A stretch of 32,838 nucleotides of DNA from Verrucomicrobiales bacterium (GTDB lineage: Bacteria > Verrucomicrobiota > Verrucomicrobiia > Verrucomicrobiales > DEV007): the NCBI GenBank assembly GCA_022361255.1, contig JAKSBG010000012.1, forward strand, positions 1 to 32,838. The letters are read 5' to 3'. The position numbers and the translations under genes are program-made. Below, one piece after another: positions 10,126 through 18,478 of the stretch (the first letter of the stretch is position 1; every line of letters starts with the position of its first letter). Under the pieces are notes generated by a model, which had not been told where the DNA came from, ran no database searches, and saw only the letters and a list, made by a program, of their open reading frames with translations.

Positions 10126-10170
10126 CAAATACAAACCGCCTTTCATTTCGTTTACTATGAGAGAAACCCT

Positions 10171-13100
10171 ATGAAATCCCTGCTTACCTTTGCTTTGCTC
10201 GCAACGCTTTCTTTCGCATCTGCGAAAGAGGGCTACCGCTCCCTCTTTAATGGAAAAGACCTTTCCGGATGGGACGGAAACCCCGAACTCTGGTCTGTTG
10301 AAGACGGAGAAATCGTTGGAAAAACGAACGGTCCCGATCACCTCGAATACAATCAGTTCCTGATTTGGCGCGACGGAACTCTGAAAAATTTCGAGCTGAA
10401 GGTGAAACTGAAAATCACCGGTCAGAACAACTCCGGGATTCAATACCGCTCCAAAGAAATGCCGGAAGTCGGGAAGTGGGTTGTGGGAGGATACCAGTGC
10501 GACGCGCACTCAAACCCTCCCTACAATGCAATGATTTATCACGAGCGTGGACGCGGCATCGTCGTTCAGAACGGCCAGAGTGTAGTGATGGACCCCGATG
10601 CCCGTAAATGGCTCGTCGCCGAACGCGATCCGGTCGCTGTTGACGTTTCGCAGTGGCATGAATACACGATCATTGCCAAAGGGAATCACATCAACCACAA
10701 GCTCGACGACAAGCTCACGATCGAGTTGCACGACTACGATGAAGCCGGCCGCTCACTCGAGGGGCTCCTCGCTTTTCAGGTTCACCGCGGACCTGCCATG
10801 GAGGTCAGAATCAAAGACGTGCGCTTGAAAGAACTCCCCGACGGCGGAGTAACTCCCTTCTCCAAAGCAGACCTCCCCAGCGATGCCCAGGAAATCATCA
10901 AGCCAAAACCGGGAGGCAAGGGCAAAGGAAAAGCCAAAGCGGCTATGAAAGGAAAAGCAGCCCCCAAGGGGAAGGCGAAAGCAAAAGCCCGTCCGAAACG
11001 CCCACAGGAAGTCGGGCCCGCCATCGGACAAAACAAAGCGACTCCGGTAGACCGCATCAAAGCCCTGGACGGATTTGACGTCGAGCTTCTCTATTCCGTT
11101 CCCGGTGGTGAGCAGGGTTCATGGGTTGCCCTGGCCCCGGACGACAAAGGCAACATCTATGCCAGCGATCAGTATGGCGACCTCTACCGCTTCCCGGTTC
11201 CCGCACCCGGCCAACCGCTTCAGCAGAAAGACGTGGTCAAAGTGCCGGTCAACATTCGAGCTATCAACGGAATGATCTTCGCCGACGGCTACCTCTATGC
11301 CGGGGTGAATGACTACGAGCGCAAAACGACGAGCGGGTTTTATCGCATAGCCGATTCGGACAACGATGGCGAGCTCGATAAAGTGGAATTGCTCCGCGCT
11401 TTCGATTCCAAAAGCGATCACGGTGTCCACGCTGTCGTTCCGACCCCGGACGGAAAGCACTTTTATCTCATCACCGGAAACAATGCGATCATCGACAAAG
11501 GCCCTTACGACGGCACCTCCGACTCCTCTCCTGTCGCGAAAATCTGGGGCGACGACCACCTTCTCCCCCGCATGCCGGACGGTCGCGGACACAACCGCCA
11601 CGTCCTCGCCCCCGGCGGAATTGTTTACCGCATTTCGAGGGACGGCAAAGACTTTGAAATATTCGCCTCCGGATTCCGGAATATTTACGGCGGATCGCTC
11701 AACAAGGACGGCGAACTTTTCACCTACGACGCCGACATGGAGTACGACTTCAATACTCCCTGGTATCGCCCGACCCGGGTCAATCACGTCGTCAGTGGCG
11801 GCGAATACGGATGGAGAAACGGAGCCGGAAAATACCCTGAGTTTTATCCTGACAATCTCCCGTCGAACCTGAACATCGGCCCCGGATCCCCTACCGGGAC
11901 ACGCTTTGGATACGGAGCAAAGTTCCCCGCAAAATATCAGAATGCGTTCTACGTGCTCGACTGGAGCTGGGGGAAAATCTACGCCGTTCATCTGGAGGAG
12001 GACGGTGCGTCCTACAAAGGGACAAAAGAGGAATTCATCACCGGTGCCCCCCTGCCCGTGACCGACGCGATCATCCACCCCGGGGACGGCGCCATGTATT
12101 TCGCGATTGGCGGACGCCGCGTTCAATCCGGTCTCTACCGTGTGACCTACAGCGGAGACAAGTCCACCGAAGCGGTCGATTTGACTGTGACGGAGACACC
12201 TTCCCGCAAACTCCGCCACGAGCTGGAAGCCTTTCACGGGAAAGAGGACGCCGCCGCAGTCGGGACGGCTTGGCCCCATCTCGACAGCAAAGACCGCTGG
12301 ATCGCCTGGGCTGCCCGCGTCGTGCTCGAACATCAACCGGCCGATTCCTGGGCAGAGAAAGCCCTCACCGAAGAAAGCGCGGGTACGCGTCTTCCCGCCC
12401 TTCTAGCCCTGGCACGGCTCACCGGTGTTGCCCCGAGTCAGCGCCCGGAAAGCGGGCACACCGTCGACACCGCGATGCGTGACAAAATTCTCGCTTCACT
12501 TCTCGAACTCGACTTCGCCGGGTTAAGCAAATGGGAAAAGCTCACTCACCTGCGAACACTCCAAGTCACTCTGAACCGGTTCGGAGATCCTGACAAAGCC
12601 ACGATCGATAAAATCATTGCGCAGATCGACCCTTCCTACCCTGCCGGCGGGTTCGAGCTCAACTGGATGCTTACGGAAACGCTCGCCCATCTTCAGGCTC
12701 CCAACACAGCCAAAAAAGCGATGGCGCTGATAGCAAAGGCGGAGAGCCAGGAACCACAGATGGAATTCGCCCGCAGCATTCGCCACCTCAAGACCGGATG
12801 GACTCCTGAACTTCGCGAGCAGCAACTCAACTGGTTTCTCAAAGCGGCCAATTACCGCGGTGGAGCCAGCTTCACCAAATTCATTGAATTCATCAAGAAC
12901 GACAGCCTCGCCACCTTCACCGACGCCGAAAAGGAAACCCACGCCGCACTCATTGCGAAGAAGCCCGAGGTGAAATCCGCAATTGAAAACGTGGGAGCCA
13001 TCTTTGCCGGTCGAACCCCCAAGATGTGGACGCTCGACGAGCTCAGCAAAGCTGCTGAGACCGGAATGACGGGCCGCGATTTCGAAAACGGTCGCAAGAT

Positions 13101-13518
13101 GTTTTCCGCTGCCGCCTGCTACGCCTGTCACCGTTTCGGCAACGCCGGTGGGATGACCGGTCCCGACCTTACGGGAGCGGGAGGACGCTACAGTCCGCAT
13201 GACCTGCTGGACCAGATCATCAATCCAAGCAAGGAGATCAACGAACAGTTCGCCCCCATCGTGGTGACGAAAAACGACGGAAGCACTGTTTCCGGAGTGG
13301 TCGTGAACCTCAGCGGCGACAATGTCACCATCAACACCGACCTCACCGATCCGAATCAGCGCGAGAACATCGACCGCAAAACCGTCGAGAGCATCGAAGT
13401 TTCAAAAGTCTCCCCGATGCCGCCGATGCTTCTCAACATGCTCACAAAAGAGGAAGTCCTTGATCTGCTCGCCTACACGCTCAGCGGTGGAGACGCAGAC
13501 AATTCAATGTTCAAATGA
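10171..13518 (+). CDS. Secreted DUF1080 / beta-propeller / cytochrome-c heme-binding fusion protein
   Basis: This is an exported multidomain protein of 1115 residues. A signal peptide (MKSLLTFALLATLSFASA) precedes a DUF1080 concanavalin-like domain at about 22-230, the family now linked to 3-keto-disaccharide hydrolysis. A lysine/alanine/glycine-rich linker spans about 243-279. A PVC-type beta-propeller follows (HLLPRMPDGRGHNRH; FASGFRNIYG), then a helical HEAT-like region, and finally a cytochrome c module with CYACH (Cys983) and the Planctomycete/Verrucomicrobia heme-domain ending GPDLTGAGGRYSPHDLLDQI. The frame is open back to 10000, but the ATG at 10171 is chosen because it starts the signal peptide. 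It probably acts in periplasmic carbohydrate oxidation or cleavage with electron transfer. It is monocistronic. Confidence 0.92.
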   Translation: MKSLLTFALLATLSFASAKEGYRSLFNGKDLSGWDGNPELWSVEDGEIVGKTNGPDHLEYNQFLIWRDGTLKNFELKVKLKITGQNNSGIQYRSKEMPEVGKWVVGGYQCDAHSNPPYNAMIYHERGRGIVVQNGQSVVMDPDARKWLVAERDPVAVDVSQWHEYTIIAKGNHINHKLDDKLTIELHDYDEAGRSLEGLLAFQVHRGPAMEVRIKDVRLKELPDGGVTPFSKADLPSDAQEIIKPKPGGKGKGKAKAAMKGKAAPKGKAKAKARPKRPQEVGPAIGQNKATPVDRIKALDGFDVELLYSVPGGEQGSWVALAPDDKGNIYASDQYGDLYRFPVPAPGQPLQQKDVVKVPVNIRAINGMIFADGYLYAGVNDYERKTTSGFYRIADSDNDGELDKVELLRAFDSKSDHGVHAVVPTPDGKHFYLITGNNAIIDKGPYDGTSDSSPVAKIWGDDHLLPRMPDGRGHNRHVLAPGGIVYRISRDGKDFEIFASGFRNIYGGSLNKDGELFTYDADMEYDFNTPWYRPTRVNHVVSGGEYGWRNGAGKYPEFYPDNLPSNLNIGPGSPTGTRFGYGAKFPAKYQNAFYVLDWSWGKIYAVHLEEDGASYKGTKEEFITGAPLPVTDAIIHPGDGAMYFAIGGRRVQSGLYRVTYSGDKSTEAVDLTVTETPSRKLRHELEAFHGKEDAAAVGTAWPHLDSKDRWIAWAARVVLEHQPADSWAEKALTEESAGTRLPALLALARLTGVAPSQRPESGHTVDTAMRDKILASLLELDFAGLSKWEKLTHLRTLQVTLNRFGDPDKATIDKIIAQIDPSYPAGGFELNWMLTETLAHLQAPNTAKKAMALIAKAESQEPQMEFARSIRHLKTGWTPELREQQLNWFLKAANYRGGASFTKFIEFIKNDSLATFTDAEKETHAALIAKKPEVKSAIENVGAIFAGRTPKMWTLDELSKAAETGMTGRDFENGRKMFSAAACYACHRFGNAGGMTGPDLTGAGGRYSPHDLLDQIINPSKEINEQFAPIVVTKNDGSTVSGVVVNLSGDNVTINTDLTDPNQRENIDRKTVESIEVSKVSPMPPMLLNMLTKEEVLDLLAYTLSGGDADNSMFK

Positions 13519-13711: not shown

Positions 13712-14146
13712 CTACCTCACCACCTCAACCGTCAACGTTTTCCGCCCCCATTCGAGGGCTTGCTGGTGAGTGCGGAAGAACAGGTCAATTTTTCCTCCTT
13801 TGATCGCTCCGCCCCGATCTTCGACAACACCCCAGCCATAACCGGGGATTTTCATTTTTGTCCCGAAGGGAAAAACATTCGTATCGGCAGCAATGGTACG
13901 CCCCGGCTTGGCCTTTGTCCCTGATGCGGTCTCACCGATTTTCTTTTTCTGTCCCTTTTGCGGCCCGTAGGCATAGACGGGTTGCATGAGGAGATTGCGC
14001 TTCCATCCACAACACTTCTGGCACTTGCAATACCCCGTTGTCTCCAGGGTAATGAATTCACTTTTCGAAAAAGGCTTCCGGGTCGCGCATCCGTATAAGG
14101 ACAGCGCGACGAAAGCGAGACCAATCACACTCACTACAATTCGCAT
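13712..14146 (-). CDS. 3D-domain lipoprotein (putative peptidoglycan-acting)
   Basis: This 144-residue lipoprotein has a signal sequence ending in lipobox LYGC (Cys20). A cysteine cluster CKCQKCCGW at 40-47 is followed by the 3D domain, a double-psi barrel named for three aspartates: Asp88 in TIAADTN, Asp110 in GVVEDRGG and Asp121 in GKIDLFF. The same fold occurs in MltA and in the stationary-phase muralytic YuiC, which suggests glycan cleavage or binding. The C-terminal HQQALEWGRKTLTVEVV closes the domain. It is transcribed toward the DUF1080 fusion gene, and the ClpX-like gene ends upstream of it on the same strand about 70 bases away. Catalytic activity is not proven for this cysteine-rich subgroup. 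Confidence 0.85.
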   Translation of the reverse strand: MRIVVSVIGLAFVALSLYGCATRKPFSKSEFITLETTGYCKCQKCCGWKRNLLMQPVYAYGPQKGQKKKIGETASGTKAKPGRTIAADTNVFPFGTKMKIPGYGWGVVEDRGGAIKGGKIDLFFRTHQQALEWGRKTLTVEVVR

Positions 14147-14214: not shown

Positions 14215-15888
14215 TTACGACTCCAGCTCGAAGTCGGTATTCTCCGGCTTACTGCTGTCTTCAGGTCCCTCGCTGTCCTCCCCTTCCGTCCGGTAACTCG
14301 CAACAACGAGGCCGCTCAAATATTTGTCCGGCTCCGAAAGCGCCTCTGCCGGAACGGCGAAAGTATCCCGCCCCGTGTTTCGCTGAATCAGCTTGAGACC
14401 GAACTGGTAGTCGTGGAATAAATCCTCACAAAGCCGCAAAACGCTCTGACCTCTCTCGTCGGCCATCTCACCGAGTTTGACGACCGCATCATTTTCAAAG
14501 GTCAGCCTGACGCTGTGTTCCTGTTCAAACTTCCGCCGGAAAGCAGCCACTTCCCCGAGAACGCGCGAATCGCCCACAGGGCCGGCTTTCTCAAGAATCG
14601 CAGCGAGAGTTTCGTCAGGGTTTTCCACCAGCTCGCCACTGATATCCAGCTCGGCAAGCGTGGTGCCGGGAAGTTCAAATTTAAAATTCCGGAGCAGCCG
14701 CTCGCACACGGTCATGAGTCCACGTGCACCTGTTTTTTCCTTCTCCGCCTCTTCGGCGATCCGTTGCAGTGCTTCGTCCTGAAATTCAGCACGGATCCCG
14801 TAGGCGGAAAACTCCCGCTCATATTGGCGGATCAGGCTGCCCTCGGAGTGCTTCATGATATCAAAGAGATCTTTCGCCTCGAGATGATCACAAACAACGC
14901 GGACGGGAAGACGACCGATAAATTCTGCCTCGAACCCGAAGTCGATAAAGTCCTGCGTCGTAACCAATTCGCCAAGTGCGGTTTCATTTTCCGCAATAGT
15001 CTGGTCAGCTCCAAAACCGATAGCCCCCTGGCGGATCCGCTTCTCGACAATCTTCTCGAGTCCCGAGAAAGCACCGCTGACAATAAAAAGAATGTGCCGC
15101 GTGTTGATCGTATCTCGAGTGGGACCTCCGCCCTTACTCATTTCAAACATCGCCTGCATCTGCGACTGAATATCCTGTGGATTGCGGACGGCCACTTCGG
15201 TGTCCTCCATCAGTTTGAGAAGAGTGGTCTGCACGCCGCGCCCACTGACATCACGTCCCCCGATGTTGGAAGCGGTCGCGATCTTGTCGATTTCATCGAT
15301 GTAGACAATCCCGTATTCTGCCAACTCCACATCGCCGTCGGCTTTGCGAACCAGTTCCCTGACAAGGTCATCAACGTCGGCACCCACATATCCGGTTTCG
15401 GAAAACTTGGTCGCATCCGCTTTCACAAAGGGCACACCGATCAGCTCTGCGATGTGTTTTACCAGATAGGTTTTCCCAACCCCGGTCGGACCGACCACGA
15501 TCACATTCTGCTTGGCATACTCAAGATCGTTGTCCCCCGAAGGATTTTCCTCATGGAGACGGTGCTGGTGTTTTACGTGATTGTAGTGGTCGCAAACAGC
15601 AATCGAGAGCGCCTTTTTCGCTTCATCCTGACGGATCACATACCGGTCGAGGTGCTCTTTGATTTGTCGCGGTATCAAATCGAACTCGAGAACATCTCCC
15701 ACCGGGTCCCGCAGGTCATGATCTTCGCCGCCGGTTTCTTCATCCATTGTGGCGAAGGGGTTCATCCCCTCCGTAACGGTCGAAAAGGATACCTGATCCC
15801 CGAAATTCGATTTCAGAAAATCGGAAAGCTTCCGTGTGATTTCCTGCGGATCAGGGAGGTTTGGCGGGTCGTCGTCTTTGTCTGACAT
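14215..15888 (-). CDS. ClpX-like AAA+ unfoldase without zinc domain, with duplicated small domain
   Basis: This ATP-dependent unfoldase-like protein has 557 residues. ClpX hallmarks are Walker A GPTGVGKT (133-140), pore loop GYVG (166-169), Walker B IVYIDEIDK (194-202), the IGF loop for ClpP docking (290-292), arginine finger EFIGRLP (322-328) and sensor-2 TGARGL (386-391). The zinc-binding adaptor domain of ClpX is replaced by an acidic region of about 65 residues, and the RKH loop is absent. After the normal small domain (about 352-406), a second diverged copy appears at 450-500 (FEQEHSVRLTFENDAVVKLG matching YEREF, then AEFQDEALQRIA), then an acidic tail. It could be a second Clp unfoldase with its own substrates. 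Standard clpX is expected elsewhere in the genome. Confidence 0.9.
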   Translation of the reverse strand: MSDKDDDPPNLPDPQEITRKLSDFLKSNFGDQVSFSTVTEGMNPFATMDEETGGEDHDLRDPVGDVLEFDLIPRQIKEHLDRYVIRQDEAKKALSIAVCDHYNHVKHQHRLHEENPSGDNDLEYAKQNVIVVGPTGVGKTYLVKHIAELIGVPFVKADATKFSETGYVGADVDDLVRELVRKADGDVELAEYGIVYIDEIDKIATASNIGGRDVSGRGVQTTLLKLMEDTEVAVRNPQDIQSQMQAMFEMSKGGGPTRDTINTRHILFIVSGAFSGLEKIVEKRIRQGAIGFGADQTIAENETALGELVTTQDFIDFGFEAEFIGRLPVRVVCDHLEAKDLFDIMKHSEGSLIRQYEREFSAYGIRAEFQDEALQRIAEEAEKEKTGARGLMTVCERLLRNFKFELPGTTLAELDISGELVENPDETLAAILEKAGPVGDSRVLGEVAAFRRKFEQEHSVRLTFENDAVVKLGEMADERGQSVLRLCEDLFHDYQFGLKLIQRNTGRDTFAVPAEALSEPDKYLSGLVVASYRTEGEDSEGPEDSSKPENTDFELES

Positions 15889-16036: not shown

Positions 16037-18478
16037 TTACTCCGGCTTTTCACGAAGAACCATGAGCCTTTCCCAGCGGGCATCGAAGTCGGCATCGATC
16101 GTGGAGATTTTCTCCGCAATTTTCATTGCCTCTGCGGTCTGGCCGGTTGCGATGGCGAAGAACACAAGCGATTCCCATTCCCCGATAGAAGCTGCAGACG
16201 GCTCCGGAAAGGTCTCGAGAGCCACTTCAAGAAGCCAGTCGAGAGCGAAAGCACCGACCTCCACTTCATTCGGACCGAATCCCAGGTCGACGATAAATAC
16301 GGAAGGGTCAGCCCGGGTAATTTTGGCATCGAGGGGAACTCCTTCGCGACGACGGACGATGCCCTCATAGGAGGCTGCATTCAGGTTCCCGGCGAGATTC
16401 TCAAGAAACAGATCCGCTTTCTCAAAGCCATAAACGAGGTCATCGCGCCATGCCTCTCCTGCCGGGGTTTTCGCTTCATAAGCCTGGATCTTTGCTTTTG
16501 CACCCGAAAAGAGCAGCGTTTCCGAAACATCGGACAACCCGGAGAGCAATTCCGTAATCAAGATCTGCTCTTCCAATTCCACAGGGCTCAAGGTCTCGAG
16601 TGAGGGGCTGAAATTTTCATCGGCAACTTTGGCCTCAGCCTTTGTCATTGCCACCATTGCAGCCCGTTCTTCAGCCTCCGCTTTTTCCTGTGCGATTATA
16701 AACTGAATTTGTTCAATGCGGGAAATACGGTTGGAAATGAGTTTTGGAAAGGCCCCTTTCGTTTTTGCCGAGTCCAGGACGGATTGCAACGCTTCCCTCT
16801 GAGCAATCATCGCACCGGCATTTGTCCGCGAAGGGTTGGGTGCCTCCTGCAGAGCTTCCCAATCAGCAAAAAACCGGGGAATCTCCTGTTGCAAACCACC
16901 GAGCCACTCAAAGCCGGCCGGTGGAGTGCCTCCCGCAAATTTCTCAAGCAACCGGATACCGGATTCAAAATGGCCCGACTGCCAGTTTTTCAGCCCTACG
17001 GCCAGCAATCCCGCCAGGCCAATCGAATCCGCGTTGAAGCTGGCACGTTCTTCAACCACCGGCAGGGGTTGCACCATCAATTCAGATAACTCGAGAAGAA
17101 CCGAGGTCGCAGGGTCGGCACCATCCACCTCATCCTCCCCCGGAGCTACCGCCTGAATACTACCAAATAAATCACGGGCTTCCCTTTCTTTTCCAAGAAA
17201 GAGTTTTGACAGTCCCCCGAAATAGTGGGTCCACATCCTTGTAGTCGGAGCAGGCGAAGTTTCTTTTACAAGTTCTTCAAAGATAGATTCGGCTTTCGAG
17301 AACTTTCCTGCGGCAATGAGGCTCCGACCTTCAAGGAAACGTTCTGTGTTTGAATTATCGCCGGCGCTGATTACCCTTTCGCCGGTTCCGATTCCCAGAT
17401 CCCCGGGCTGCTGAACCGGTTCATCGTTCTTCAACTGGATATAAATTCCCGTAACCACTGCAGTAAGCGCGCTGAAGATGCCCACGACCATGATTGTGAA
17501 GCCTTTGCCGTCTTTGCGACTCCCCCGCTTCCGCCGTATGCCGAACTGTTTTCGTTCGATATCCTCGATCTGATGAAGAATTTCGTCGTAAGACTGGGGA
17601 CGGTCCTGCGCCGAGTAGGCCATCATGGATTCGATCAGCTTCAAGGTCGCCTTCGAAGTATCCGGTGCCTCCGACTTCAGATCCACCTGTTCCTTCTTGA
17701 TGACCTTTAACTCGTCCAATGAGGAAGTATTGGCCTCAAAAGGAGGCTTCCCGGCGAGAGCATGATACAAGGTAGCTCCCAGACTGTAGATATCGCCGAG
17801 AGAAGTATCCATTTCTCCGTCCAGCTTCTCCGGGGGCACATAAAAAGGAGTCGCCCACAAATCTTCCGACTCATCTTCTCCGCCCTGTTGTACTGCGAGG
17901 CCAAAATCTACAAGCTTCGAGGTGCCGTCGGGTGTCACCAGCATGTTACCGGGTTTGATGTCCCGGTGAATCAGATCTTCTTCGTGGGCGGCTTTCAGCC
18001 CCTTGGTTACGTCGTGTGCAATCTGGAGAACTTTGGTTTCATCAAGCGCCCCCTCTTTTGCAATTATCCCCTCAAGGCTCGTCGCGTCGACAAGCTCCAT
18101 CGCGATGAAAAAATACCCTTGATCCTGGCCGACAGTGTATACTTTGACTACATTGGGATGGAGAATAGAAGCAGTGAGCTTTGCCTCGCGCTCAAACATC
18201 GCCGTCAGGGCACTGTCACGGCTCAGACTCTGGTGGAGAATTTTCAGGGCGACCTCCCGCTGAAGATGCATGTCCAGCGCCCGGAAAACCTGGCTCATGC
18301 CTCCGGCTCCAAGTTCGCCCGTGATCTGGTATTTCCCCATGATGGTGCGAACCCGTACACTCGAACCACAGGCCGGACAGACGATCTTAGAGTACGGCGT
18401 AAGCGCCGTGACCTCGATTGACTGTGAGCAATCGGGGCACTGGTTAATAATTGGGGTCTGTGGCGTCGACTCGTCCAT
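16037..18478 (-). CDS. Zinc-ribbon Ser/Thr protein kinase with extracytoplasmic helical region
   Basis: This is a membrane-bound Hanks-type kinase of 813 residues. An N-terminal zinc ribbon (Cys14, Cys17, Cys34, Cys37) is followed by the kinase domain: glycine loop GAGGMSQVF, Lys80 in VALKIL, catalytic HRDIKPGN (Asp174) and DFG (Asp192), so it should be active. One membrane helix lies at about 329-352 (FTIMVVGIFSALTAVVTGIY). The remaining 450 or so residues form an alanine- and glutamate-rich helical, TPR-like region outside the membrane, which may sense or bind a partner. Zinc-ribbon kinases of this layout are common in PVC bacteria. It is transcribed alone, divergent from kdsA, so control of envelope functions is possible but not shown. 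Confidence 0.93.
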   Translation of the reverse strand: MDESTPQTPIINQCPDCSQSIEVTALTPYSKIVCPACGSSVRVRTIMGKYQITGELGAGGMSQVFRALDMHLQREVALKILHQSLSRDSALTAMFEREAKLTASILHPNVVKVYTVGQDQGYFFIAMELVDATSLEGIIAKEGALDETKVLQIAHDVTKGLKAAHEEDLIHRDIKPGNMLVTPDGTSKLVDFGLAVQQGGEDESEDLWATPFYVPPEKLDGEMDTSLGDIYSLGATLYHALAGKPPFEANTSSLDELKVIKKEQVDLKSEAPDTSKATLKLIESMMAYSAQDRPQSYDEILHQIEDIERKQFGIRRKRGSRKDGKGFTIMVVGIFSALTAVVTGIYIQLKNDEPVQQPGDLGIGTGERVISAGDNSNTERFLEGRSLIAAGKFSKAESIFEELVKETSPAPTTRMWTHYFGGLSKLFLGKEREARDLFGSIQAVAPGEDEVDGADPATSVLLELSELMVQPLPVVEERASFNADSIGLAGLLAVGLKNWQSGHFESGIRLLEKFAGGTPPAGFEWLGGLQQEIPRFFADWEALQEAPNPSRTNAGAMIAQREALQSVLDSAKTKGAFPKLISNRISRIEQIQFIIAQEKAEAEERAAMVAMTKAEAKVADENFSPSLETLSPVELEEQILITELLSGLSDVSETLLFSGAKAKIQAYEAKTPAGEAWRDDLVYGFEKADLFLENLAGNLNAASYEGIVRRREGVPLDAKITRADPSVFIVDLGFGPNEVEVGAFALDWLLEVALETFPEPSAASIGEWESLVFFAIATGQTAEAMKIAEKISTIDADFDARWERLMVLREKPE

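Follow-up and report, generated by a model that had tools for sequence, protein, structure and literature searches.

The window, that is, the whole stretch of 32,838 nucleotides analysed here from a Verrucomicrobiales bacterium, contains an intact gene for a ClpX-like AAA+ protein that carries two small domains (Table 1). The start Met of this 557-aa protein is conserved among its relatives. The likeness to ClpX that had been noticed in the original prediction was borne out, as the top PDB match is ClpX (E 5e-74) and the ClpX match spans residues 72-427. The protein is of the ClpX type in the broad sense, with intact AAA+ motifs, a GYVG pore and a sensor-2 small domain, and it misses the ClpX equivalog thresholds of both PRK05342 (NCBIfam; 349 bits vs a cutoff of 359) and TIGR00382 (316.7 vs 370.75 bits). 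The upstream neighbour is a kinase of the PknB type with weak TPR matches. On the forward strand of the window, at 10168-13518, lies a gene for a large protein with a 3-keto-disaccharide hydrolase domain and a C-terminal cytochrome c domain.

Table 1. Coordinates in the window of the ClpX-like gene, its domains and motifs, and its two adjacent genes.
Feature	Position	Strand	Remarks
ClpX-like AAA+ protein, two small domains	14215..15888	-	557 aa; intact ORF
N-terminal region, aa 1-70	15679..15888	-	Short helix motif (P.PEEI..KL..F...FGD.V.F) where the zinc-binding domain would be
Large AAA+ domain, aa 71-335	14884..15678	-	Pfam AAA_2; Foldseek to ClpX, ~360 columns
Walker A GPTGVGKT, aa 133-140	15469..15492	-	(Nearly) invariant across the family
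Pore-1 loop ETGYVG, aa 164-169	15382..15399	-	Exact in 84/87 family rows
Loop in place of the RKH loop, aa 236-262	15103..15183	-	Longer; D239 and Q243 conserved
IGF ClpP-docking motif, aa 290-292	15013..15021	-	IGF in 115/131, IGF-type in 130/131 members
First small AAA+ domain, aa 336-435	14584..14883	-	AF2 elements H352-362 to H424-435; ClpB_D2-small match
Sensor-2 TGAR, aa 386-389	14722..14733	-	Family-invariant
Second small AAA+ domain, aa 441-538	14275..14568	-	Sensor-2 GAR deleted; hhalign, AF2 alone, PDB matches, genome-wide profile search
Ser/Thr kinase with N-terminal zinc ribbon, upstream gene	16037..18478	-	148 bases from the clpX-like gene
Small protein with 3D domain, downstream gene	13712..14146	-	Not conserved as neighbour

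Genome context and conserved motifs

The genome of the 557-aa protein has one clpP, gives no PF00227 match for HslV, and carries on another contig (G000:C120) the canonical clpX that the original prediction had advised looking for, with both the zinc domain and RKH. More widely, clpP was present in all 25 genomes tested, as a single match in 23 of them, and canonical ClpX was also seen in 14 of the 15 family-carrying genomes reached through loci; the paralog without a visible canonical ClpX was that of a Planctomycetota MAG (G072). A few draft genomes of close relatives (G001, G029) likewise have the paralog as their only visible ClpX.

Unlike canonical clpX, the family gene lies outside the clpP-clpX operon. 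None of the loci inspected has clpP directly adjoining it, and the nearest linkage was found in Candidatus Tritonobacter (L075), at about 2 kb to a few kb upstream of a clpP-clpX pair. The kinase gene adjoins the family gene in 19 loci, mostly from the same genus, and in other groups the neighbours differ (FtsH, a chloride channel, an EamA transporter, LpxD and others). Considering that the kinase is conserved mainly within the genus and that neighbours elsewhere are varied, we rejected the assignment of a functional partner through gene order, and no partner gene conserved across phyla was found in the loci inspected.

The Walker A/B motifs, the arginine-finger region, the pore-1 loop and the sensor-2 of the first small domain are retained in the family. 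Together with canonical ClpX (TIGR00382 / PRK05342), the family has the AAA+ core, Walker A/B, the GYVG pore-1 loop, the RDVSG pore-2 region, the IGF loop and the sensor-2 small domain. The IGF ClpP loop, which had been predicted to remain, is indeed in place, and although the divergence of the family reaches about 40% identity, an IGF-type motif is still found in all members but one, the divergent L217. In E. coli ClpX, the IGF residues and loops are critical to ClpP binding (PMC7112951), and the RKH loops help substrate recognition and change specificity (PMC7112951; PMC9035409).

The family differs from canonical ClpX in having neither the zinc-binding domain nor the RKH motif, and in having a longer conserved loop in place of the latter. 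The zinc domain of ClpX is a dimerisation domain and is used for the docking of adaptors and substrates. Its motif was found in 44 of 45 canonical ClpX sequences, whereas no CxxC occurs in the N-terminal 75 residues of any of the 131 family members, so the absence of the zinc adaptor domain that had been read from the single protein extends to all of them. The place of this domain is taken by about 65 residues that include a short, conserved helix motif; in the AF2 model of the 557-aa protein, they form a helix at 14-29, with low confidence in the remainder.

The RKH loop of ClpX touches the ssrA degron. The canonical motif (GGRKHPQQ) is present in 41 of the 45 canonical sequences, and it was not found at the aligned loop of the family members, where D239 (130 of 131) and Q243 (127 of 131) are conserved. 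Three RKH strings do occur among family members, but two of these sit elsewhere in the protein and the third (L102) is due to chance, the composition of the loop being different. In four Myxococcota ClpX proteins with zinc domains (L184, L190, L199, L202), the RKH loop reads GNKRLPNQE and not GGRKHPQQE.

A second, degenerate small domain

The 557-aa protein has an extra C-terminal small domain that canonical ClpX does not have. Our analysis confirmed that the protein's own small AAA+ domain at ~336-435 (copy 1) is repeated, in degenerate form, at residues ~441-538 (copy 2). When residues 336-432 and 441-538 were aligned as single sequences, the score was 72, against 27.4 +/- 5.2 for shuffles, of which 0 in 1000 reached 72; the same comparison in 121 two-copy relatives gave a median z of 7.7. 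With hhalign, the family profiles of the two copies matched at a probability of 97 (E 1e-10), and with six regions elsewhere in the protein the probability was only 0.1 to 2.1. In a larger sequence set, the match between the copies rose to a probability of 98.7 (E 2.9e-16). The copy 2 profile matched canonical ClpX small domains at E 1e-6, and because copy 2 is thus nearer to its own copy 1, the profiles favour an internal duplication as its probable origin; a copy taken from canonical ClpX is less likely. A frame artefact or chance fusion was ruled out because the same architecture is shared by >100 genomes.

The original prediction had placed the repeat at residues 352-406 and 450-500, with a degenerate sensor-2 in the second copy. 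The repeat itself stood and its limits were slightly narrow, the unit being about 95 residues, and the profile alignment shows a deletion in copy 2 where copy 1 has its sensor-2 GAR (386-389). A few core positions of copy 2 are nearly invariant, and the mean identity to the 557-aa protein is 42% for copy 2 vs 69% for the motor.

The AF2 model of the 557-aa protein was built on 78 relatives. In this model, copy 1 consists of H352-362, E366-369, H371-384, H389-405, E413-416, H418-422 and H424-435, and copy 2 of H441-458, E461-464, H466-479, H483-490 plus H494-505, E509-512, H514-518 and H520-538, so that the order of the elements is identical, with a pLDDT of about 89-96 in copy 2. Folded alone, copy 2 reached a mean pLDDT of 86.7. 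In Foldseek, ClpX chains ranked first for copy 2 alone, with a probability of 1.00 but an E of only 0.037. In VIA-align, copy 2 alone aligned to ClpX 317-408 over 83 residues at 2.4 A (Z 8.8), and the 50 entries listed were all ClpX or HslU chains. A Z near 8 is by itself modest evidence for the fold of copy 2, but it is in line with the profile comparison above. Searched against the PDB, a profile of copy 2 built from sequence alone found nothing significant (DnaK 0.011, ClpX 0.18). The tail, residues 450-500 included, is thus related to the AAA+ small domain by hhalign, by AF2 of copy 2 alone and by VIA-align, and the second C-terminal small domain holds as predicted.

When 37 related genomes were searched in six frames, the copy-2 profile recovered copy 2 and then copy 1 in nearly every carrier, with copy 1 at E 2e-8 in the genome of the 557-aa protein. 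The sole other match was marginal (G015, E 0.007), and the use of copy 2 elsewhere as a mobile domain is unsupported by this search.

Distribution of the family and loss of the second copy

The family is ancient and forms the sister clade of canonical ClpX. In the core tree, with HslU as the outgroup, it is monophyletic (UFB 99) and separate from canonical ClpX, which is also monophyletic (100). Identity to E. coli ClpX is 36.3-43.5% within the family (about 41% for the 557-aa protein) and 51% or more in the canonical set. The 557-aa protein resembles HslU (ClpY) in its ClpX/HslU-type AAA+ core and in a related small domain. However, HslU has no IGF loop, and it has an I-domain and partners with HslV, which is missing from this genome.

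Counted at E 1e-120, the family is found in 75 of 288 Verrucomicrobiota genomes, or about a quarter, in 56 of 152 genera, and it also occurs in Planctomycetota (6/199), Bdellovibrionota (7/144) and Myxococcota (2/188), as well as in records of Omnitrophota, Spirochaetota and Poribacteria; many members come from metagenome assemblies. The scores in Myxococcota are bimodal, as the two family members reach E 4e-167 or better and the rest about 1e-107 or worse. A long insertion separates the two small domains of one Myxococcota member (L145). The full two-copy gene is retained in two 0.9-Mb single-contig verrucomicrobial genomes (G290, G311) despite genome reduction, and it is missing in several complete genomes (G043, G047, G055) from a single genus of the order to which the window belongs. 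From its distribution, the family is both old and dispensable.

Nine sampled members stop directly past the first small domain (L101-L103, L213-L218). They occupy about six tree positions and are nested within the two-copy members, and for this reason a one-copy ancestral state is not favoured. We also rejected the view that they are recently broken two-copy genes, as no remnant of copy 2 was found in the ~450 bases downstream of their stops (best E 0.3; controls 1e-29 or better). On the basis of this nesting and the lack of downstream remnants, the ancestor of the family most likely already had copy 2, and about six clean losses followed, with the motor retained. The IGF-like motif is kept in eight of the nine one-copy members and is lost in the divergent L217. 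One verrucomicrobial genome (G378) holds two family genes (L217 and L221), one two-copy and one divergent one-copy.

The closest characterised protein that we found, by description, is ClpX3 of Myxococcus xanthus (MXAN_2743), which has neither the N-terminal domain nor RKH, is encoded by an isolated gene, shows 43.5% identity to E. coli ClpX and causes heat sensitivity when deleted (PMC11423568). The likeness is drawn from the published description; the identity value falls at the limit of the family range and below the canonical range of at least 51%, and only 2 of the 188 sampled Myxococcota carry the family. Our search of open-licence papers turned up neither a ClpX with a duplicated small domain nor the family itself.

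A putative ClpP-docking unfoldase

We consider, with a probability of roughly 60%, that the 557-aa protein is an alternative unfoldase that docks on ClpP and chooses its own substrates, with copy 2 as an accessory module for docking or regulation. The protein would most likely form a hexameric AAA+ ring that draws substrates through its GYVG pore, and its IGF loops would dock the ring on the same ClpP as canonical ClpX. Since the protein has lost the zinc domain and carries a longer, conserved loop where RKH would stand, the ring would be expected to select substrates other than those of canonical ClpX. The second small domain, presumably formed from the first by internal duplication, has lost its sensor-2 and so probably completes no nucleotide site, and on this ground we expect it most likely at the ring rim, as the accessory docking or regulatory module. 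A stronger form of this reading is tentative: besides ClpX and ClpA/ClpC, ClpP could have a further, ancient and distinct class of partner unfoldase that reads its own degron code, and the duplicated, catalytically dead small domain would serve there as an adaptor dock mounted on the rim. If so, small-domain duplication would be a way for AAA+ motors to gain recruitment modules.

Small domains of ClpX normally pack against the large domain of the adjoining subunit, and copy 2 might rather be an assembly element that packs between adjacent subunits at the rim, stabilises the ring and replaces the dimerising zinc domain. This would fit such packing, the absence of the zinc domain from all members and the few nearly invariant core positions that copy 2 retains, but it is unlikely, as the nine members at about six tree positions have kept the motor without copy 2, and nearly all of them the IGF-like motif as well. 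The clean losses indicate that copy 2 is unnecessary for the core motor; they lower the likelihood that ring assembly depends on it and raise that of a modular accessory role. Accordingly, where the original prediction held that the extra domain could change assembly or recruit substrates, a required part in ring assembly fares poorly, and recruitment or regulation would be the more likely role. The replaced RKH loop and the wide spread and age of the paralog had escaped that prediction.

Mitochondrial ClpX remodels ALAS without ClpP (PMC7077987), and the 557-aa protein could likewise be a ClpP-independent remodelling chaperone with the IGF loop as a relic. The gene is unlinked to clpP in the inspected loci and L217 has no IGF, as would be expected of such a chaperone; however, a relic would hardly keep its IGF-type form in 130 of 131 members across divergent phyla, and we consider this improbable, more so than the assembly role. 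The occurrence of both proteins in nearly all sampled carriers would also suit mixed rings with canonical ClpX, in which the paralog tunes the substrate choice of the canonical enzyme, but with an identity of only about 41% to E. coli ClpX and with clade-specific loops, this seems very unlikely.

Automatic annotation would probably label the 557-aa protein as an ordinary second clpX. Our study describes a deep paralog clade that kept the protease dock and dropped both known ClpX substrate-selection elements, in genomes with mostly a single ClpP. Because members with one copy and members with two occur in nature, the contribution of the extra domain can be tested directly, and if ClpX3 belongs to the family, the heat sensitivity of its deletion would be a useful lead. 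These paralogs are predicted to form a branch of regulated proteolysis that has so far gone unrecognised, in Verrucomicrobiota as well as in some Planctomycetota, Bdellovibrionota, Spirochaetota, Omnitrophota and Myxococcota.
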